A stretch of DNA of 21,350 nucleotides from a virus, in the IMG/VR virus record IMGVR_UViG_3300010148_000154, positions 1-21,350 of that record. The stretch is one strand, 5' to 3'. Below, one piece after another: positions 3,485-20,865 of this stretch (positions are counted from its first letter, which is position 1; each line of letters starts with the position of its first letter). Below the pieces are notes generated by a model. The model was not told where the DNA came from and did no database searches. It saw only the letters and a list, made by a program, of their open reading frames with translations. The position numbers and the translations under genes are program-made.

Positions 3485-4750
3485 ATGGCTAACGGCTGGG
3501 GACAAGGCACCTGGGGTGCTGTTGGTTGGGGTGGTATTGGTAACACCTCTGTTGCCGTTACTGGTGTAGCGGGTACGTCAGCCGTTGGTGATGAAGCAAC
3601 TACTGCTGGTTCTCTTGTAATCGAAACTGGATTACAAGCTACTGGTTCTATAGGAACAGTCAACGCTAGTAGTGTTCATATAACAATACCTACACCTGTT
3701 GTAGGTACTACTTTTCTTGGTAGTGCCATTGGTTCAATTCCAATTACCGCAACTGTAACTGGCTTTTCTGCAACAATCGGTTTTATGACTGGTTGGGGAG
3801 ATGGTGGCTGGGGTGCTGGAGTTTGGGGTGGTGGAGTATTTGCAGACGTAGGTCAAGTTCTTCCAGTAACTACAAATGTAGCACAAGGCTTAGTGCAAAC
3901 TCCAACAATAACTGGAACTTGTATATTCAGCGTCACTGGTGTTGCGGGAACAACTGCCCTAGGAAATGCTTTAGCCGCAGCTGGAGCCATAGTAGAAGAA
4001 ACTGGATTAACTGGCACAATAGGATTTGGTGATGAATCTGTTGTAGGTACTGCATTAGTTTCACCTACTGGTGTTTCTGGAGTAATTGATCTTGCTCAAA
4101 AATCTACAGCAACCATTACATTTACGGTTACTGTTGTGGGTGGTAATCCATCTAATCATCCTTATTACAACTTAGGCTCTACAAATAAATATGCAATCAA
4201 TGGATCGACTGCAACGGCAGATGTTACTTTAGATTTATACGAAGGGAATACTTATAGATTTGACCAAAGTGATGCTAGTAACGATGGACACCCATTAAGA
4301 TTTAGTGTCACGCCAAATGGAACTCATGGTGGTGGTCAAGAGTACACAACTGGTGTAACAACAAATGGAACGCCTGGTACAGCTGGAGCGTATACAGAAA
4401 TAACTGTCGCTTCTGGAGCACAGACTTTACATTATTATTGTACTAATCATACTAACATGGGTTACTATGCTTATACTCCAGTTATCAATTACACTGTAAG
4501 TGGAACAACTGGAGCACCAGTCACAACAGTCGTTGGAACAACTGGATTGGGTAACGAATCTGTTACTGCTGATGGAAATCTAGCAGTGACGTTAGCGGGA
4601 GCAACAATTTCGATAGGAACGGTTGCAATAACTGGTGGTTCTGTGCTATCTTTGACTGGAGTTAGTGGCACTGGTGCAACTGGAGAAGAAAATATCTGGG
4701 GTCTAATTGTCCCAGATCAAGTAGCTAATTGGATTGAAAGGGTAGCATAA
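3485..4750 (+). CDS. Gly/Thr-rich tail protein with cupredoxin-like domain
   Basis: The 421-residue protein opens with a Gly-Trp cluster (GWGQGTWGAVGWGGIG, residues 4-19), with a second cluster at about 103-117 (GWGDGGWGAGVWGGG). Between and after these are loosely repeated beta segments (VTGVAGTSAVG, VTGVAGTTALG, LTGVSGTGATG). Residues about 212-332 form a distinct module resembling a cupredoxin: LYEGNTYRFDQSD, then GHPLRFS with H269, then LHYYCTNHTNMG with C319, H322 and M325. His, then Cys-x2-His-x2-Met, is the ligand order and spacing of the type 1 copper site of amicyanin. The domain type recurs in marine phage tail proteins; whether copper is bound is not shown. The glycine-rich parts suggest a tail fibre or adhesin. 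A weak AGGGTAA precedes the start. Confidence 0.8.
   Translation: MANGWGQGTWGAVGWGGIGNTSVAVTGVAGTSAVGDEATTAGSLVIETGLQATGSIGTVNASSVHITIPTPVVGTTFLGSAIGSIPITATVTGFSATIGFMTGWGDGGWGAGVWGGGVFADVGQVLPVTTNVAQGLVQTPTITGTCIFSVTGVAGTTALGNALAAAGAIVEETGLTGTIGFGDESVVGTALVSPTGVSGVIDLAQKSTATITFTVTVVGGNPSNHPYYNLGSTNKYAINGSTATADVTLDLYEGNTYRFDQSDASNDGHPLRFSVTPNGTHGGGQEYTTGVTTNGTPGTAGAYTEITVASGAQTLHYYCTNHTNMGYYAYTPVINYTVSGTTGAPVTTVVGTTGLGNESVTADGNLAVTLAGATISIGTVAITGGSVLSLTGVSGTGATGEENIWGLIVPDQVANWIERVA
4118..4480 (+). other. Cupredoxin-like domain within tail protein
   Basis: This is the domain span (residues about 212-332) inside the protein at 3485-4750. Candidate type 1 copper ligands are H269, C319 (codon 4439-4441), H322 and M325. 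The segment between them includes EYTTGVTTNGTPGTAGAYTE, a loop pattern I associate with the same module in other marine phage proteins. Flanking sequence is low-complexity beta repeat, so the domain looks like an insertion in a fibre-like protein. Assignment rests on ligand order and hydrophobic pattern, not on a profile search. Confidence 0.65.
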
Positions 4751-5370
4751 TGGCAACATACGTTAACAATCTTCGATTAAAAGAAATCACAACTGGTGAT
4801 GAGTCAGGTACTTGGGGTACTTCGACTAACACAAATCTTGAATTAATAGGAGAGGCATTAGGTTTTGGTACAGAAGCCATAACAACAAACGCTGACACAC
4901 ATACAACTACGATAGCAGATGGATCTTCGGATGCTGCTAGATCAATGTATATCAAGTACACTGGAACATTAGATTCTGCTTGTACGATTACAATAGGTCC
5001 GAACACCATGAAAAGAGTGCATATAATAGAAAATGCAACAAGTGGTTCACAAAACATAATTATATCACAAGGCTCTGGTGCAAACGTAACGATAGCACCT
5101 AGCACTGCAAAAGCAATTTATTTAGATGGAGCTGGAAGTGGAGCAGCCGTTGTTGATGCTTTTAATACACTTAGTTTAGCTAGTCCAACAATGACAGGCA
5201 CACCAGTTGCACCAACTGCTTCGGCAAATACTAATTCAACTCAAGTAGCTACAACTGCTTATGTGCAAACAGAGTTAGGTCATTTGTTAGTCTTGGAAGC
5301 AGATGCGAGTAATGATGATCCAGTAGCTGGAGATTTTACAAATGGTGCTATATTAGTAGGACAGTTCTAG
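4750..5370 (+). CDS. Tail fibre-type protein with fibre repeat motif (206 aa)
   Basis: The start overlaps the preceding stop (TAATG). The N-terminus YVNNLRLKEITTGDESGTWG is typical of a family of marine phage fibre proteins in which a G-x-x-S-G-T-W-G segment follows an LRLxE strand. The middle is beta-rich (ACTITIGPN, SQNIIISQG). At about residues 155-180 lies TGTPVAPTASANTNSTQVAT followed by TAYV, the short repeat typical of lambda Stf and other side tail fibres (T-P-x-A-P-T-A then T-x-x-A-T-T-A-Y-V). This supports a tail-fibre role. At 206 residues it is short for a complete receptor-binding fibre, so it may be a connector segment that partners the next gene. Confidence 0.75.
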   Translation: MATYVNNLRLKEITTGDESGTWGTSTNTNLELIGEALGFGTEAITTNADTHTTTIADGSSDAARSMYIKYTGTLDSACTITIGPNTMKRVHIIENATSGSQNIIISQGSGANVTIAPSTAKAIYLDGAGSGAAVVDAFNTLSLASPTMTGTPVAPTASANTNSTQVATTAYVQTELGHLLVLEADASNDDPVAGDFTNGAILVGQF

Positions 5371-5379
5371 GAGTTTTAA

Positions 5380-6813
5380 ATGCCAAAAATATTCGGATTG
5401 GATGCTAGTACAGTTAGACAAATAACAAAACTGTTTGCTCTTGACGGAGCGACACCTCGTAGAGTTAAAAAACTATTCTCAAATGATGGTGGTACAATAA
5501 GATTAATATTCGAAGATAAATCCACATTTACTGTATCTGGAACAGCTAACTTAATTCAATCACCAGTCAACGAAGTTATAGAGTTTGGTTTTAGAACAGA
5601 CTTTGATGCAGGTGGTACAGATGTAAGTGTAAACGCATCTGGTAGTGGAGATGCAAGTAACGTAGGAACTCCAGGACTAACAATCGATGTAGATAGTAGT
5701 CATACCTATTCTGGTAATTCACCATTAAGGAGTCCAGGTGGAGCACCAATGGCACAAGGTCCAAGTCCAGGGTTTTCTCAACCACCAACAAATGCAGTTT
5801 TTATACCGAATGATCCTCAACTGGGTATGGATCCACCTGTCAATCAACAAATGGCACAAGAGTTTGCATCAGTGTTAGGATCAAATTTTAATTCTAAATG
5901 GAGTTCAGGTTCTTATTTAACAATAAATGGAACACAATCATTTGGTAGTGCTACACCAGGTGGTAATCGTCAGTTTCAAGGTCCGTGGGGTAATGTTGAA
6001 GGACTTTACTTCGGTGGTCAATATGGAGCAAGAGTGCAATGTTCTCCAAGCACTTCACTTGGTCCCATGAGACTTGCTGGTGCTTCAACAGTTTCAACCA
6101 CAGGTAGAAGAGCAAGAGTTCAAAATGGAACTGGTAAAACATTTACCGTGCAAAGTGGTGGCTTAACTGCTGGTGGTAATTTTGCTACTGGTGATTTAGC
6201 TAATGGTGCAGCTACTGGTTTTATTACTGCAAACAGCACTAGTGAAGCGTGGACTTTGGTAGGTCTTATTTCACAAGATCCAGCAACTTTTGCTATATCT
6301 AATGCAGATGGTACTATTAGTGTAAGTGGTACTTTTGCTGATGGTGAAAATGCTACACAAGCAAGAACTAGAATAAAAAATGCACTAAATGGTAATAGTA
6401 CATTTACTGGTAAGTTTGATACTGGCACAGATAGTGATAAAACAATCAGTAGTGTTGACCATAAGATAGTAACTTTTACTAGTGATAGTGCTGAAAATAC
6501 AAGTGACTTTACAATAACGATTACACAGAATGATGGTAGTAATACTACAGGTCATGAAGCAGTGACAACACAAGGAGCGGCAGAAAGTCTGCAAACAGTT
6601 GTTACAGTGGTAAGAGAAGTTGAAGGATCTTCAGTATCAACAGCTACTGCGATATCAAGTGAAGCAGACACAGATACTGCTGGTGCAGCCGTGGCTTCTA
6701 ATACAACACAAGAAGTTACATACGATTCATCAACAAATAAATTAAGGGTAAACGATCAAGAGGCAACTGTATCAGTTTCAAATCCAGGATCACTATCATT
6801 TTCTAAAGATTAA
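5380..6813 (+). CDS. Putative tail fibre/virion protein with triple N-terminal repeat (477 aa)
   Basis: A TAGGAG ribosome-binding site lies before the ATG. The first 44 residues are three consecutive 14-residue repeats, each starting K-(I/L)-F and carrying D-x-x-T-x-R at fixed spacing. After this, residues 45-110 are beta-type, 115-160 are Pro/Gly/Gln-rich (RSPGGAPMAQGPSPGFSQPP), and the C-terminal half is a long Thr/Ser/Asp-rich beta stretch with FAISNADGTISVSGTFADG, TFTSDSAENTSDFTITIT and a closing LRVNDQEATVSVSNPGSLSF. No catalytic motif is seen. Composition and its place after a fibre gene argue for a tail fibre or decoration protein. It is the last gene before the oxygenase cassette. Confidence 0.7.
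   Translation: MPKIFGLDASTVRQITKLFALDGATPRRVKKLFSNDGGTIRLIFEDKSTFTVSGTANLIQSPVNEVIEFGFRTDFDAGGTDVSVNASGSGDASNVGTPGLTIDVDSSHTYSGNSPLRSPGGAPMAQGPSPGFSQPPTNAVFIPNDPQLGMDPPVNQQMAQEFASVLGSNFNSKWSSGSYLTINGTQSFGSATPGGNRQFQGPWGNVEGLYFGGQYGARVQCSPSTSLGPMRLAGASTVSTTGRRARVQNGTGKTFTVQSGGLTAGGNFATGDLANGAATGFITANSTSEAWTLVGLISQDPATFAISNADGTISVSGTFADGENATQARTRIKNALNGNSTFTGKFDTGTDSDKTISSVDHKIVTFTSDSAENTSDFTITITQNDGSNTTGHEAVTTQGAAESLQTVVTVVREVEGSSVSTATAISSEADTDTAGAAVASNTTQEVTYDSSTNKLRVNDQEATVSVSNPGSLSFSKD
5386..5511 (+). repeat. Three tandem 14-residue coding repeats
   Basis: Residues 3-16, 17-30 and 31-44 of the protein at 5380 align without gaps: KIFGLDASTVRQIT, KLFALDGATPRRVK, KLFSNDGGTIRLIF. Shared positions are K1, (I/L)2, F3, D6, T9, R11 and a hydrophobic residue near the end. 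The DNA copies have diverged in third codon positions, so the repeat is old rather than a recent slippage product. Confidence 0.85.
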
Positions 6814-6831: not shown

Positions 6832-7440
6832 ATGAACAACTTAGATAAAATCGAAGAACCGTTACAATTAGACAACGCTATGTCTGATTACTATGTTTAT
6901 AACCGAGCCGTACCAAAAGAAACTTGCGATCAAATCATCAAATTTGCAGAAGGTCAATGGGAAGACGCAAGTGTTGGTGGTGAAAATGTTACACAAAAAA
7001 ACGTAAGAAAAGAGATAAGAGACTCACAAGTTGCTTGGAGTAGTTGTCCAAATCTTTTTGAGATGGTTTGGGGTTATCTTAATGATGCAAACGATAAAGC
7101 CATGTGGAGGTTTCAGATTGATTCAGCGCAACCTATGCAGATTACCAAATATCAAGTCGGTGGTTTCTACGAGTTTCATAAAGATGGTAATGGTTTTACA
7201 AGAGACGTAAGTGATAAAAACATAGTTACTTACAATAAAACAAGAAAACTATCTATGACAGTTGTTTTAAATGACGACTATGAAGGTGGAGAGTTTGAGT
7301 TTTTAGGTAATGGAAAGATTAAAGAAAAGATGGGAACAGTTATTGTTTTCCCTTCATATATGCAACACAGAGTCTTGCCAGTAACAAAAGGTGTAAGATA
7401 TTCACTTGTTGTTTGGTTTTGTGGTGAACCATTTATTTAA
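6832..7440 (+). CDS. 2OG-Fe(II) oxygenase, PKHD/prolyl-4-hydroxylase type
   Basis: This 202-residue protein shows a full 2-oxoglutarate/Fe(II) dioxygenase signature. GFYEFHKDGN gives the iron ligands H116 and D118. The FPSYMQHRVLPVTKGVRYSL segment gives the distal ligand H179 and the 2-oxoglutarate-binding R189, ten residues later. Between them lies LSMTVVLNDDYEGGEFEF, the typical double-stranded beta-helix core strand pair. The N-terminal part (YNRAVPKETCDQIIKFAEGQ) also fits the family. Such enzymes hydroxylate protein or small-molecule substrates using 2-oxoglutarate and oxygen in the cytosol. It is the first of four consecutive oxygenase-like genes placed inside the tail module. Substrate unknown; catalytic competence looks likely because all four key residues are present. 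Confidence 0.88.
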   Translation: MNNLDKIEEPLQLDNAMSDYYVYNRAVPKETCDQIIKFAEGQWEDASVGGENVTQKNVRKEIRDSQVAWSSCPNLFEMVWGYLNDANDKAMWRFQIDSAQPMQITKYQVGGFYEFHKDGNGFTRDVSDKNIVTYNKTRKLSMTVVLNDDYEGGEFEFLGNGKIKEKMGTVIVFPSYMQHRVLPVTKGVRYSLVVWFCGEPFI

Positions 7441-7863
7441 TATGTCTTATCAAATACATAATTTAAAATACATCCAAGATGATTTTTTTGGTTTTGTAAC
7501 CGATTGTGAAAATGCAAAAGAAAGATTTGATGGTTTCTTTCCAGACACATCAACGACATGGGGTTATCAAGCCTATAATATATTTAGTCTAACATCTGGT
7601 TCATTAAGATTTTATAGATTATTTAATGATATAAAAAAGATAGCACGAGAATATTTAAAAACTGACAAGCCTTTATGGTTACAGAGTTGGTTGAATTTTC
7701 ATAACATGGATGAAGTATTAGACTGGCATGTTCATATTGAGTGTTCTGCACATGGCTATGTTTCTATAAACCCAATGAAAACAAAAACAGTTTTTGAAAC
7801 ATTTGAAGTAGAAAATGAAATAGGAAAACTTTATATAGGCGAACCATTTATGCAACACAGAGT
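7359..7863 (+). repeat. 15-base direct repeat shared by first two oxygenase genes
   Basis: TATGCAACACAGAGT occurs at 7359-7373 and again at 7849-7863. In both genes it encodes the MQHRV segment that holds the distal iron-ligand histidine, and it is in the same reading frame relative to that motif. A further shared block, GAACCATTTA, is found at 7426-7435 (end of the first gene) and 7841-7850 (second gene). Convergence on a motif, common ancestry or local gene conversion could explain this. Confidence 0.75.
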
Positions 7864-7993
7864 AGAGATTTCAGAACCTTTTCTTAACAGACCACGGATC
7901 ACGGTTGCTTTTGATGTTTTGACAGAAGACAACTTAGATAAATTAAGAGAAGAAGCTGGAAATAAAATCAACCTTTCACACATACCCATATAA
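7442..7993 (+). CDS. 2OG-Fe(II) oxygenase-like protein with HxH site (183 aa)
   Basis: I chose the ATG at 7442, one base after the previous stop, because the ATG at 7406 would overlap the upstream oxygenase in another frame and add an unrelated tail. The 183-residue protein has the oxygenase-type pattern LDWHVHIE (H96, H98, E100), then GYVSINPMKTKTVFE, then GEPFMQHRV with H139, and RPRITVAFDV with R150 and R152 as candidate 2-oxoglutarate ligands. This layout matches a phage and marine bacterial group of putative 2OG oxygenases. Where most members have H-x-D, this one reads H-x-H with Glu two residues later, so the metal site may be altered. It shares an identical 15-base block with the preceding gene around the distal His. 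Confidence 0.7.
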   Translation: MSYQIHNLKYIQDDFFGFVTDCENAKERFDGFFPDTSTTWGYQAYNIFSLTSGSLRFYRLFNDIKKIAREYLKTDKPLWLQSWLNFHNMDEVLDWHVHIECSAHGYVSINPMKTKTVFETFEVENEIGKLYIGEPFMQHRVEISEPFLNRPRITVAFDVLTEDNLDKLREEAGNKINLSHIPI

Positions 7994-8004
7994 AGAGAAG
8001 TAGA

Positions 8005-8514
8005 ATGAAACACAGAATAATTGAAAATTTTTTACCAGAGGAAACCTTTAAAAAAATAGCAGACCATATATACACACCTAGTTTTGGTTGGGGTTACAAT
8101 GAATGTGTTGCCTTTGAAGAACCTAGTAAAGACGACAACTTTTATTTTACCCACGAACTTTATAACTGGGGTGCTCCCAAATGTACTTTTTTTGATGAGG
8201 TTTTTTTCCCAATAGAGGGTGCTCTACGTCAAAAAGCAGATATAGATATAAAAGCAATCGTTAGAATTAAATGTAATTTATACACAAGAACAGAAAAAAT
8301 AGTGCAACATGATATGCACAAAGATTACGATTATAGCCACACTGCTTGTATTTTAGGAATAAATGACTGTGATGGATTTACAATTTTTGAAAATGGGGAT
8401 AAAATTGAAAGCAAAGCAAATAGAATGTTGATCTTTGATGGGTTAGATAAACACTGTTCGACAACTTGCACAGATAAAAAAGCAAGAATAAATATAAATT
8501 TTAATTTTTTATAG
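8005..8514 (+). CDS. 2OG-Fe(II) oxygenase-like protein (169 aa)
   Basis: The 169-residue protein starts after an AGAGAAG ribosome-binding stretch. It opens IIENFLPEETFKKIADHI, a common oxygenase N-terminus. The core has VQHDMHKDYDYSHTACILGI (H105 and D107 as iron ligands, with H102/D103 as an alternative pair), DGFTIFENGDKIESKANRML, then FDGLDKHCS with H150 and KKARININF with R161 eleven residues later. The G-x-T-x-F followed by N-R-x-x-x-F and a late H are typical of the small 2OG oxygenases common in marine T4-like and other phages. It is third in the four-gene cassette. The gene and its 3' end are visibly more AT-rich than the neighbouring structural genes. Confidence 0.78.
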   Translation: MKHRIIENFLPEETFKKIADHIYTPSFGWGYNECVAFEEPSKDDNFYFTHELYNWGAPKCTFFDEVFFPIEGALRQKADIDIKAIVRIKCNLYTRTEKIVQHDMHKDYDYSHTACILGINDCDGFTIFENGDKIESKANRMLIFDGLDKHCSTTCTDKKARININFNFL

Positions 8515-8522
8515 GGAAAAAA

Positions 8523-9230
8523 ATGGACGGATCAAACACAGTTACTAACACCGTACAACTGTTTAAAGAAAATAATTATGTAGTTATTAGAAACATCATA
8601 CCAGATGCTTTGACACAACATCTTTATAATTATACAATTTTAAAAAGAAGAGCTATACAGACAATGATACTAAGAGGTAGACTAGCACCAGATAATTGGT
8701 TGGGTGGTTTTACTTCCGATCAAGTACCTGATGCTTTTGGTTGTTACGCAGATTTTGCAATGGAAACTTTAATGCAAGATTTACAAGGTAAAATAGAAGA
8801 AATAACTGGATTGAAATTATGTCCAACGTATACATTCTCAAGAATTTATACAGAGGGAGATATTTTAGAAAGACATAAAGACAGACCAAGTTGTGAAATA
8901 TCTTCAACACTTTGTCTTGGTTATGATTATAGCACAGCACCAGAAGGTTACGAGTGGGGTATGTTTGTAGAAAAGTCTGGAGAGTTAGGTAAAGAAGGCA
9001 AAGAAGTACACTTAAACCCAGGTGACGCAATCGTCTATCGTGGTTGTGAGATTGAACACTGGCGAGAAGAATTTTTAGGTGCTCACCAATCTCAAGTGTT
9101 TTTACATTATAATGATATTAATGGACCTAGCGGTAAGACATATATGTATGATACAAAGCCACATCTAGGTTTACCTGCCGAGTTTCAAAAACAAGGAGTG
9201 CTTGGAGTTAAAATGCCTGCACCAAAATAA
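8523..9230 (+). CDS. 2OG-Fe(II) oxygenase-like protein (235 aa)
   Basis: Starts after TAGGGAAAAAA. The N-terminus, with VQLFKENNYVVIRNIIPDAL, is typical of phytanoyl-CoA-dioxygenase-like and related oxygenases. The catalytic pattern is ILERHKDRPSCEISSTLCLG (H118, D120), then HLNPGDAIVYRGCEIEHWRE with H179, then HQSQVFLHYND. Where most 2OG oxygenases have Arg or Lys about ten residues past the distal His, this protein has H188, Q189 and S190; R181 is only two residues on. I remember similar phage proteins with a conserved Q-V-F-L-H-Y segment, so this may be a family trait. It is fourth in the cassette, immediately before the gp10-like tail gene. Iron binding is plausible; co-substrate binding is less certain. 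Confidence 0.78.
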   Translation: MDGSNTVTNTVQLFKENNYVVIRNIIPDALTQHLYNYTILKRRAIQTMILRGRLAPDNWLGGFTSDQVPDAFGCYADFAMETLMQDLQGKIEEITGLKLCPTYTFSRIYTEGDILERHKDRPSCEISSTLCLGYDYSTAPEGYEWGMFVEKSGELGKEGKEVHLNPGDAIVYRGCEIEHWREEFLGAHQSQVFLHYNDINGPSGKTYMYDTKPHLGLPAEFQKQGVLGVKMPAPK

Positions 9231-9241
9231 ACGAGAGTGAT

Positions 9242-11107
9242 ATGCCCTTAACCAGTTTAAAATTTAGACCAGGAATTAATAGAGAAATAACTTCTTATTC
9301 TAATGAGGGTGGTTTCTTTGATTGTGAAAAAGTTAGATTTTATGCTGGGTTTCCAGAAAAAATAGGTGGTTGGGCAAAACATTCAGATAACACCTATCAA
9401 GGCACGGCTAGAGCATTACATAACTGGGTTGCTCTAGACAACTCTAACTTTATGGGCGTTGGTACACATTTGAAATACTATATAGAAGAGGGTGGTCAGT
9501 TTAATGATGTAACACCTGCTCGTAAGACTTCTACTAACAGTATTACTTTTGCCGCTACTAATGGCTCATCAACTATAACTGTAACGGATTCGAATCATGG
9601 AGCAATACAAAATGATTTTGTAGTTATATCTGGTGCAGTTACTTTAGGTGGTCTTGTCACAGCCAATATTCTTAATGCAGAGCATCAAATAACAAGAGTT
9701 GTTAATGGTAATACTTATGAAATTACTGTAAGCGTCACAGCAAATAGTTCAGATTCTGGTAATGGTGGCTCTGGTGTTGATGGAGTATATCAAATAAATG
9801 TGGGTCTTGATACTTCTGTTGGTGGTAACGGATGGGGTGCTGGTGGATATGGTGGTATCAATGCAGATTTAACTACATTCGGATGGGGTGAAGCAGCGGC
9901 AAGTGGAACAACTGCACAAATTCGTTTGTGGTCACATGATAATTTTGGTGAAGACTTACTTTTGAATCCTAAAGATGATGCCGTTTATTACTGGGATAAA
10001 ACTAATGGTGTTAATAATAGAGCAGTTTTATTATCAAGTTTAACTGGTGCGTCAGATGTTCCTACGATTGCAAAACAAATTTTAGTATCAGATATTGATA
10101 GACATGTAATTGCATTTGGAACTAATACCATAGGCACAACGACACAAGATCCTCTTCTTATTCGTTTTGGTTCTCAAGAGTCTCTAACAGATTTTACTCC
10201 AACTGCAACAAATACAGCAGGCGATTTAAGATTAAGTAGTGGCTCCACATTCGTTCAAGCAGTTGAAACAAAACAACAAATACTGGTGTTCACAGACAGA
10301 AGTTTGTTTAGTATGAGATTCATCGGACCACCTTTTACTTTTGGTCTGCAAGAACTTTCTAAAAATATTACAATCATGAGTCCAAAAGCCGCCGTTGCTG
10401 TAGATGATGCAGTGTTCTGGATGGGTAAAGATACTTTTTATCTGTATGGTGGACAGACACAACAGATACCTTGCACAGTTAGAGAAAAAGTATTTTTAGA
10501 TTTTAATCTTAGTCAGGTCGATAAAGTGTTTGCCGCAGTTAATTCTCAATGGGGAGAGATATGGTGGTTTTATCCGTCTGCTAGTTCAACAGAAAATGAT
10601 AAGTATGTTATTTACAATTACCTAGAGAAAACATGGTATTATGGAACTTTAACTAGAACTGCTTGGCATGACAGAGGTATCAGACGATTTCCAATAGCAG
10701 CAGGCTCATCTTATTTATTTGACCACGAAACTGGAAACGATGATGATGGATCAGCAATGACTGCTTCTATTGAATCAAGTCAAATTGATATAGGTGATGG
10801 GTATCAATTTAGTTTTATAAAGCAATTAATTCCAGATATTACTTTTGAGGGATCTACATCAGACACTGGTAATCCAACGGCTACTTTCACATTACAAGCA
10901 AGGAAAGGACCTGGTAGCACTTATGCTAATAGTTCAAGTGGATCAAGCGAAAGAACATCCACTACTTCAGTAGAACAGTTTACAGATTTAATTAACGTAA
11001 GACTTAGAGGTCGTTCTTTTAACATGAAGCTCGAATCAACGGCACAAGGCGTTGCTTGGAAGTTAGGGACACCAAGAGTAGACATTAGACCAGATGGGAG
11101 AAGATAA
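9242..11107 (+). CDS. P22 gp10-like tail/packaged DNA stabilisation protein
   Basis: The 621-residue protein opens LTSLKFRPGINREITSYSNE, followed by GGFFDCEKVRF and GFPEKIGGW. This is the signature of a large marine-phage family related to P22 gp10, the tail hub protein that closes the portal channel after packaging. The C-terminal two thirds fit the family as well: VLVFTDRSLFSMRFIGPP, FWMGKDTFYLYGGQTQ, EIWWFYPSASS, YVIYNYLEKTWYYG and a closing GTPRVDIRPDGRR, consistent with a beta-propeller-like fold. It is longer than P22 gp10 (472 residues). Residues 101-216 look like an inserted beta region with a Gly-Trp cluster (GGNGWGAGGYGG and FGWGEA). It likely works with the gp4-like protein at 375-1043, although the fibre and oxygenase genes separate them. 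Confidence 0.82.
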   Translation: MPLTSLKFRPGINREITSYSNEGGFFDCEKVRFYAGFPEKIGGWAKHSDNTYQGTARALHNWVALDNSNFMGVGTHLKYYIEEGGQFNDVTPARKTSTNSITFAATNGSSTITVTDSNHGAIQNDFVVISGAVTLGGLVTANILNAEHQITRVVNGNTYEITVSVTANSSDSGNGGSGVDGVYQINVGLDTSVGGNGWGAGGYGGINADLTTFGWGEAAASGTTAQIRLWSHDNFGEDLLLNPKDDAVYYWDKTNGVNNRAVLLSSLTGASDVPTIAKQILVSDIDRHVIAFGTNTIGTTTQDPLLIRFGSQESLTDFTPTATNTAGDLRLSSGSTFVQAVETKQQILVFTDRSLFSMRFIGPPFTFGLQELSKNITIMSPKAAVAVDDAVFWMGKDTFYLYGGQTQQIPCTVREKVFLDFNLSQVDKVFAAVNSQWGEIWWFYPSASSTENDKYVIYNYLEKTWYYGTLTRTAWHDRGIRRFPIAAGSSYLFDHETGNDDDGSAMTASIESSQIDIGDGYQFSFIKQLIPDITFEGSTSDTGNPTATFTLQARKGPGSTYANSSSGSSERTSTTSVEQFTDLINVRLRGRSFNMKLESTAQGVAWKLGTPRVDIRPDGRR

Positions 11108-20223: not shown

Positions 20224-20865
20224 ATGTCTACATTAATTGTTAATTTACCTTCGATAGATGTATGGGTTCGTAAAGAATATTTAAGAGATGGAGAAGATGG
20301 ACACGGAGAATTTGTAAAAGGTGTCTGGGTTACTGCGAAATCTATTCCAGGTCGAGCTTTCTATTTTGAAACTTATCTCCCTGACTACGGTGCTCTTTAC
20401 GATAAACTACCTATTAGTGCTTTTACTTCTGAACCACAGACCCCAGATCCAGATATGGATCTTTATAATCTCCAGTTTTGGAATTGCATGGATTATGGGG
20501 TGGTGGCAGTTAGCAAACAGTTTATAGGATCAATGGACTTTGAAGTTTACACAAGAGATCACGGCATTGTAAAAGGATCTTACGTTTGTACTTTAGATAA
20601 CTATCACGAGAGTATAGACACGATAGATTATTCAACCAGTGAGAAACCAGCAGAACACAAATCATTTAACTTATTAGAATTAGATAACGGACAGTTCTGT
20701 CTGTATCCAAACAACAGAATGAGAGTGTACGATAATTCACTAACACCAGACAAGCCACTGCAACCAGACTTCAAAGTTAGTACAGAAATATATCAAGTTG
20801 AGAACGGACAGAAGTTCAGACTCGGAGATACAGACGAGTATTTTTGGAAGGCAAAAGATGAATGA
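20224..20865 (+). CDS. Conserved phage protein of unknown function (213 aa)
   Basis: Starts at once after the endolysin stop (TAA then ATG). The protein is soluble and aromatic-rich, with VNLPSIDVWVRKEYLRDGED at the N-terminus, WVTAKSIPGRAFYFETYLPD, FWNCMDYGVVAVSK in the middle and a C-terminal half with NGQFCLYPNNRMRVYDNSLT and FKVSTEIY. The style (E-Y-L-x-D, GR-x-F-x-FE-x-YLP-x-YGA-x-YDKLPISAF) is strongly conserved in marine phages, where it is usually adjacent to lysis or late genes; I know no assigned function. The stop overlaps the next start in ATGA, so the two genes are coupled. Confidence 0.75.
   Translation: MSTLIVNLPSIDVWVRKEYLRDGEDGHGEFVKGVWVTAKSIPGRAFYFETYLPDYGALYDKLPISAFTSEPQTPDPDMDLYNLQFWNCMDYGVVAVSKQFIGSMDFEVYTRDHGIVKGSYVCTLDNYHESIDTIDYSTSEKPAEHKSFNLLELDNGQFCLYPNNRMRVYDNSLTPDKPLQPDFKVSTEIYQVENGQKFRLGDTDEYFWKAKDE

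Follow-up and report, generated by a model that had tools for sequence, protein, structure and literature searches.

Divergent 2-oxoglutarate oxygenase-like genes beside marine phage tail fibres: a candidate fibre-maturation cassette whose gene set follows fibre type

Marine phages often carry auxiliary genes for oxygenases that depend on Fe(II) and 2-oxoglutarate (2OG), and a metabolic role is usually assigned to them; as far as the literature searched shows, no function has been tested. T4-like cyanophages carry multiple 2OG-Fe(II) oxygenases, for which roles in nitrogen metabolism or DNA repair have been proposed (Sullivan 2010, PMC3037559). In HTVC023P-type pelagiphages, eight 2OG genes that are not orthologous to one another have been described, with ferrochelatases as their partners (Wittmers et al. 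2022, PMC9599517), and Fe(II)-dependent oxygenases (8) are listed for metaviromic islands with the inferred function "host recognition" (Mizuno et al. 2014, PMC3909814). The presence of 2OG oxygenases in phage host-recognition islands is therefore already known (Mizuno 2014; Wittmers 2022). Here we describe four consecutive 2OG-Fe(II) oxygenase-like genes, P1 to P4, in IMG/VR virus record IMGVR_UViG_3300010148_000154 (the window, meaning the whole analysed stretch of 21,350 bases), for which the phage collection contains no match at the DNA level. In related phages, the set of such genes follows the type of the tail fibre encoded beside it. We put at about one in two the probability that the four genes form a fibre-maturation cassette that hydroxylates the co-encoded fibre. 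A first-pass annotation of the window took single 2OG oxygenases in marine phages as known; their occurrence stands, their being single does not, given 24 such genes in S-SCSM1 (PMC9602691) and clusters in HTVC023P-type phages (PMC9599517).

On the + strand, the window runs from virion genes through fibre-like genes (3485-6813), the four small genes and a gp10-like stabilization protein to more virion proteins and an endolysin-like gene. The region between the fibre genes and the gp10-like gene is referred to below as the slot. The features are as follows, with protein lengths in amino acids (aa).

3485..4750, + strand: 421-aa tail-fibre-like protein, the anchor of the slot on its upstream side, with PHROG tail fiber matches (phrog_30742, 1e-18); kept in relatives
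4750..5370, + strand: fibre-like protein, 206 aa, with PHROG tail fiber matches; longer forms, ~320-470 aa, occur in relatives
5380..6813, + strand: large fibre and presumed adhesin, 477 aa, type D; candidate substrate, with homologues in L109, L122, L126 and L130
6832..7440, + strand: P1, 2OG-Fe(II) oxygenase, 202 aa, PiuC / prolyl-4-hydroxylase-like (PF13640, PDB profiles, motif)
7442..7993, + strand: P2, 2OG-Fe(II) oxygenase-like, PF13759-type with an H-x-H motif, 183 aa (PHROGs, PDB profiles, AlphaFold2, Foldseek)
8005..8514, + strand: P3, 2OG-Fe(II) oxygenase-like, 169 aa, phrog_274 family, labelled "DNA endonuclease V" (PHROG, motif)
8523..9230, + strand: P4, prolyl-hydroxylase-fold protein, 235 aa, phrog_2954, labelled "ferrochelatase" (AlphaFold2, Foldseek, motif)
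9242..11107, + strand: gp10-like / stabilization virion protein, the anchor of the slot on its downstream side (match at 9e-68 to phrog_3287, virion structural protein; "stabilization protein" relatives)

Open reading frame (ORF) calls recover the four adjacent same-strand frames of 202, 183, 169 and 235 aa that had been reported with gaps of about 1-11 bases; the gaps are 1, 11 and 8 bases. The start of P2 is taken as the ATG at 7442, and the ORF tool extends this frame to a TTG at 7406. Their position between fibre genes and the gp10-like gene is as first described, and the arrangement recurs there in related phages. Promoter and terminator scans found no excess over shuffled sequence, which appears in keeping with a single late transcript that would carry the four genes together with the fibre genes. 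The large fibre has no protein relative in the INPHARED phage collection. One homologue of the 206-aa protein, in L099, carries a Peptidase_S74 chaperone domain (PF13884).

The reading of all four products as oxygenase-like, made originally from the letters and translations, is upheld: profile, motif or structure places each in the superfamily, and the profiles do not show two or more of them to be non-oxygenases. Judged from its sequence, P1 is an Fe(II)/2OG oxygenase, with an HxD...H triad, a 2OG-binding Arg and a profile of the double-stranded beta-helix (DSBH). It matches Pfam PF13640 (2OG-FeII_Oxy_3) above the cut-off (E 1.4e-15), its alignment profile finds PiuC (3dkq, 4e-15) and prolyl 4-hydroxylases (5c5t, 2jig, down to 5e-10) in the PDB, and its motif H116xD118/H179/R189 is invariant across 37 sequences. 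P2 is a member by predicted fold and by profile. Its Pfam match, PF13759, is below the cut-off (E 0.019), and stronger matches are to phrog_2696 (2e-41), the 2OG family phrog_81 (4e-7) and, by profile, PDB entries 3bvc (5e-25) and 2rg4 (3e-24). The AlphaFold2 model of P2 (predicted local distance difference test, pLDDT, 92.5) matches 3bvc, cupins and hypoxia-inducible factor (HIF) prolyl hydroxylase in Foldseek, with a modest template modelling (TM) score of ~0.5. In place of the canonical HxD/E first ligands, P2 has H96-x-H98 in 20/20 aligned sequences, as do its PF13759-like relatives, followed by H139 and by R152 in at least 90% of these sequences; the H-x-H may mean that the metal site is unusual or that another residue serves as second ligand. 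No relatives of P2 were found in viral contigs when related loci were searched with P2 alone.

P3 is 2OG-like by motif and profile, with the HxD...H triad and Arg in H105xD107/H150/R161, invariant across 35 sequences. It matches PF13640 below the cut-off (E 0.16) and phrog_274 at 3e-43; P1 matches phrog_274 too, at 5e-7, and PHROG 2297 is likewise common to both. P4 has no Pfam match and matches phrog_2954 (1e-46). Its AlphaFold2 model (pLDDT 92.3) places it in the superfamily by DSBH fold, together with the triad H118xD120/H179, which is invariant across 54 sequences. Foldseek ranks a prolyl hydroxylase of P. putida (4iw3/4j25, E 4e-10) as its best match and also finds PHD2. The P2 and P4 models (pLDDT ~92) thus match known DSBH oxygenases, the outcome of the jelly-roll check by structure prediction that had been proposed. 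The late Arg noted in three of the four proteins is present in P1, P3 and P2, and P4 has instead invariant R107, R181 and H195 across the 54 sequences. A profile scan of genome contigs found no cellular relative of P4, a weak negative because the scan used one short pattern only.

The four proteins resemble each other at the profile level only, consistent with the earlier view that they are separate families rather than a recent tandem duplication. The family phrog_3531 was rejected as proof of P1-P4 homology: P1 matches one half and P4 the other, which suggests a fusion of two domains. A 397-aa ORF at L086:2529-3722 fuses P4-like and P1-like domains, and phrog_3531 appears to describe such fusions.

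PHROGs 274, 2297, 2954 and 3531 and the GenBank names derived from them bear the labels "DNA endonuclease V", "DNA endonuclease" and "ferrochelatase", which are carried by 023Pt_psg01, S-SM1 and many cyanophage records. These labels appear to be misnomers for 2OG-oxygenase-like families. P3 has no endonuclease V (denV) Pfam match, PF13640 being the only match at E <= 1. None of the 54 P4 family members matches a ferrochelatase Pfam model (E <= 0.1), the fold is that of an oxygenase, and the S-SM1 "ferrochelatase" model matches P4. Published interpretations rest on the labels that are put right by reclassifying "ferrochelatase" and, probably, "DNA endonuclease V". Reclassification also bears on the proposal that the enzymes act on host metabolism, by draining 2-oxoglutarate to succinate, altering nitrogen sensing, repairing DNA or serving iron and heme metabolism with ferrochelatase. 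Metabolic roles have been proposed for cyanophages (PMC3037559), and in HTVC023P-type phages 2OG oxygenase and ferrochelatase were proposed as partner auxiliary metabolic genes of iron metabolism, with the ferrochelatase described nearby, not adjacent (PMC9599517). In the present analysis, by contrast, the "ferrochelatase" has a prolyl-hydroxylase fold and the enzyme set is tied to fibre type. Furthermore, P3 as a DNA demethylase is not supported by a significant match (best E 0.17), and draining one metabolite needs no set of up to about eight divergent, fibre-tied enzymes. We regard a metabolic role as decidedly unlikely.

Slot content was compared in 70 IMG/VR loci (L numbers) that encode a protein related to the stabilization protein. 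Of the 51 loci having a fibre anchor, 42 have one or more 2OG-like genes in the slot, and the range is from none to about eight, with seven or eight at L094, L100/L101 and L117. Most slot genes without a direct P1-P4 match belong to other 2OG families (phrog_81, phrog_61), and slot content is therefore drawn mainly from one superfamily. A further family, DUF6445, shows an HxD...H-like pattern by eye. The slot thus holds a changing gene set, and with fibre-locus gene content differing between close relatives it is a metaviromic, or host-recognition, island. The islands described by Mizuno et al. are likewise hypervariable host-recognition islands with tail fibres; an enzyme array, fibre matching and a mechanism are absent from the part of that description consulted (PMC3909814). 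As a separate observation, the main non-oxygenase enzyme of class A cassettes (fibre classes are defined below), found within several of them, is cluster c13 (L094:7279-7941 and relatives), which weakly resembles PP-loop ATPases of the PAPS reductase / QueC-like kind and is possibly a further modifying enzyme.

Five fibre classes (A-E) are seen among the compared loci. Class A fibres (~420 aa, 23% Gly) precede relatives of P4-P1-P3, with no, one or several additional genes. Class B fibres (Gly-rich, PF21722 Gly_rich_2) mostly precede genes of clusters c2-c1 or c1-c4, and in class C c2 is accompanied by a small gene, c11. P3 is constant in class D, to which the window and four other contigs belong, with P1, P2 and P4 present variably; class E is mixed in content. 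On the stabilization-protein tree of 66 loci, fibre class requires 15 changes, indicating that the fibre block is often exchanged. Fibre class changes 4, 3, 4 and 3 times on the trees of the oxygenases P1, P3, c2 and P4 (minimum 3, 3, 3 and 2), versus 8, 6, 7 and 4 times on stabilization-gene trees of the same loci. The oxygenases therefore travel with the fibre.

The same turnover could be taken to mean that the slot is an insertion-tolerant hot spot in which oxygenases are passengers, hitch-hiking by phage-to-phage exchange without a fibre role. Gene content does turn over rapidly, and the oxygenase proteins evolve much faster than the neighbouring virion gene: by a simple, rough method that is biased upward at high divergence, the median ratio of nonsynonymous to synonymous substitution rates (dN/dS) is ~0.4-0.6 for P1, P3, P4 and c2 versus 0.09 for the stabilization gene. 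These ratios are nevertheless mostly <1, and the motif residues of P1, P3 and P4 are invariant in 35-54 diverse homologues. Moreover, the cargo is almost wholly one superfamily plus small fibre-associated genes, and the module recurs in distantly related phages. Passenger status is for these reasons unlikely.

The fibres themselves offer a candidate target. Classes A and D have a hypervariable stretch of ~70-140 residues, at ~residues 115-235 of the type D window fibre. Pro makes up 10.5% of this stretch versus 2.5% elsewhere in class A, and 9.8% versus 1.7% in class D, a 4-6x enrichment reached by 0/1000 circular shifts; Tyr and Trp are enriched as well in the class A stretch. A Pro-rich variable stretch fits a presumed receptor-binding segment and would offer targets for hydroxylation. 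Type A and B fibres, at 23-33% Gly, resemble glycine-rich adhesins with hypervariable segments, type A by its hypervariable segment and type B by PF21722, whereas the window fibre has only ~11% Gly. T-even gp38-type adhesins may be comparable with the type A and B fibres.

The module is also found in distant pelagiphages. The stabilization proteins of HTVC023P and 023Pt_psg01 are 31-34% identical to that of the window, and both phages have a row of class B-family Gly-rich fibres and a small gene, c7, followed by P1-x-P4 in HTVC023P and by P3-P1-x-P4 in 023Pt_psg01, where x is another 2OG-like gene. HTVC023P (gp65-67, gp71) and 023Pt_psg01 (URG13117-13120) thus share with the window the position, the P1-P4 association and the presence of several non-orthologous 2OG genes beside fibres; the large fibre of the window is of a different family from HTVC023P-type fibres. 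No 2OG-like genes were detected outside the slot in HTVC023P, 023Pt_psg01, HTVC027P and contig G002, and homologous Gly-rich fibres lie beside the 2OG genes in three of these four. Contig G003 has no 2OG-like gene. Among viral loci found with P4 as the seed, the immediate neighbour is P1-type in 56/74 and any 2OG-like gene in 67/74, and where P1 lies upstream of P4 the genes overlap in 39/50 cases. Gly-rich ORFs number 61/472 within 2 kilobases of oxygenases versus 11/328 farther off, counts that are descriptive because the loci are related. Related phages in which the genes are scattered singly over unrelated positions did not emerge from this comparison. T4-like cyanophages have enzymes of the same superfamilies (PF13640, PF13759), including homologues of the same phage families, but their many 2OG genes per genome are mostly not reported as one array.

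A fibre-maturation cassette would work in the following way. The genes would be expressed late, cotranscribed with the fibre genes, and P1 to P4 would act as prolyl-hydroxylase-type enzymes that depend on Fe(II) and 2-oxoglutarate. Before the virion assembles or while it does so, they would hydroxylate fibre side chains, Pro being the likeliest and Asn, Asp, Lys or Tyr possible, chiefly in the large fibre's hypervariable segment. Hydroxylation would tune the folding, stability or receptor binding of the fibre. Each fibre type would require a matching enzyme set, and for this reason fibre and oxygenases would be exchanged as one block. A virion protein as substrate is indirectly supported, as oxygenase type tracks fibre type and the variable segment is Pro-rich. 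Hydroxylation of Pro is itself a prediction from comparison and modelling: protein prolyl hydroxylases are among the solved structures nearest to P1 and P4. In fold and metal motif, P1 and P4 resemble PiuC, prolyl 4-hydroxylases of viral and algal origin, and P. putida PPHD (4iw3, a structure with bound EF-Tu), although P4 is only 12-16% identical to prolyl hydroxylases. The multi-step modification first suggested for the four genes is one possibility; several enzymes might instead work side by side, each on its own site or protein.

Alternatively, the oxygenases might modify the host surface late in infection, acting on lipopolysaccharide sugars or lipids or on outer-membrane proteins, and so alter the receptor of the matching fibre, for example to block superinfection or to release progeny. 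Covariation with fibre type is explained equally well if enzymes and fibre match the same receptor, and in HTVC023P and HTVC027P glycosyltransferase genes follow slightly farther downstream. Small molecules or lipids are the substrates of many 2OG oxygenases. Against this, the prolyl hydroxylases among the closest relatives of P1 and P4 act on proteins, and the genes are grouped with structural genes of the tail-fibre region, not with takeover genes. On balance, modification of the host surface is fairly unlikely.

Several observations weigh against fibre maturation by the cassette. P4 lacks the canonical 2OG-binding Arg/Lys ~10 residues past the distal His. Pro-rich variable loops may be simply typical of binding segments. 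Physical linkage, with block swaps between homologous flanks, could alone yield much of the covariation. In class A, the distance between hypervariable segments correlates significantly but weakly with the distal oxygenase set (Mantel rho 0.24), and P4 predicts this set better (rho 0.54) than the hypervariable segment does. Correlations of the distal set with other block genes span rho 0.30-0.54, the adjacent stabilization gene being weakest (rho 0.16, p 0.054), and these class A correlations do not separate function from linkage. In addition, the two oxygenases of HTVC027P are inverted, contig G001 has, besides the seven 2OG-like genes of its slot, two to three at other positions, and the relatives in cyanomyoviruses lie elsewhere in the genome, some adjoining a helicase gene.

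The wider form of the fibre-maturation proposal is that marine phages carry sets of protein hydroxylases, each specific to a fibre, that modify the hypervariable part of this receptor-binding fibre after translation. Host range would then diversify by a second route besides sequence change, and the fibre and its enzymes would be exchanged as one module. We advance this proposal tentatively, at somewhat less than even odds. If it is true, hydroxylated phage fibres would be a new control of host range in abundant ocean viruses; if the sets match fibre types, the enzymes are probably tools for making the host-recognition protein, and many annotations would have to be reread. A link between oxygenase set and fibre type, or a "ferrochelatase" as an oxygenase fold, was not found in the open-licence literature, most subscription papers lying outside the search; within that limit, both the match to the fibre and the reassignment of "ferrochelatase" appear to be new.

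Elsewhere in the window, a 213-aa protein at 20224-20865 is ~75% identical over its full length to Synechococcus myovirus proteins (phrog_3704, E 9e-108), a cyanophage similarity far above that of the rest of the phage. Those relatives are annotated "ferredoxin", "PurM" or hypothetical, and the sequence is not ferredoxin-like in appearance. Close copies (84-89%) occur in only some related contigs, with ~30% identical versions in others, a pattern that suggests exchange with cyanophages. No psbA was found in nine related contigs, so that a cyanobacterial host is neither supported nor contradicted. Upstream of the fibres, a 238-aa protein at 2012-2728, between virion genes, has no PHROGs or NCBIfam match; the 95-aa gene that follows it is sometimes directly preceded by a 2OG-like gene in L098, L109 and L126, and a second small variable slot may exist there.

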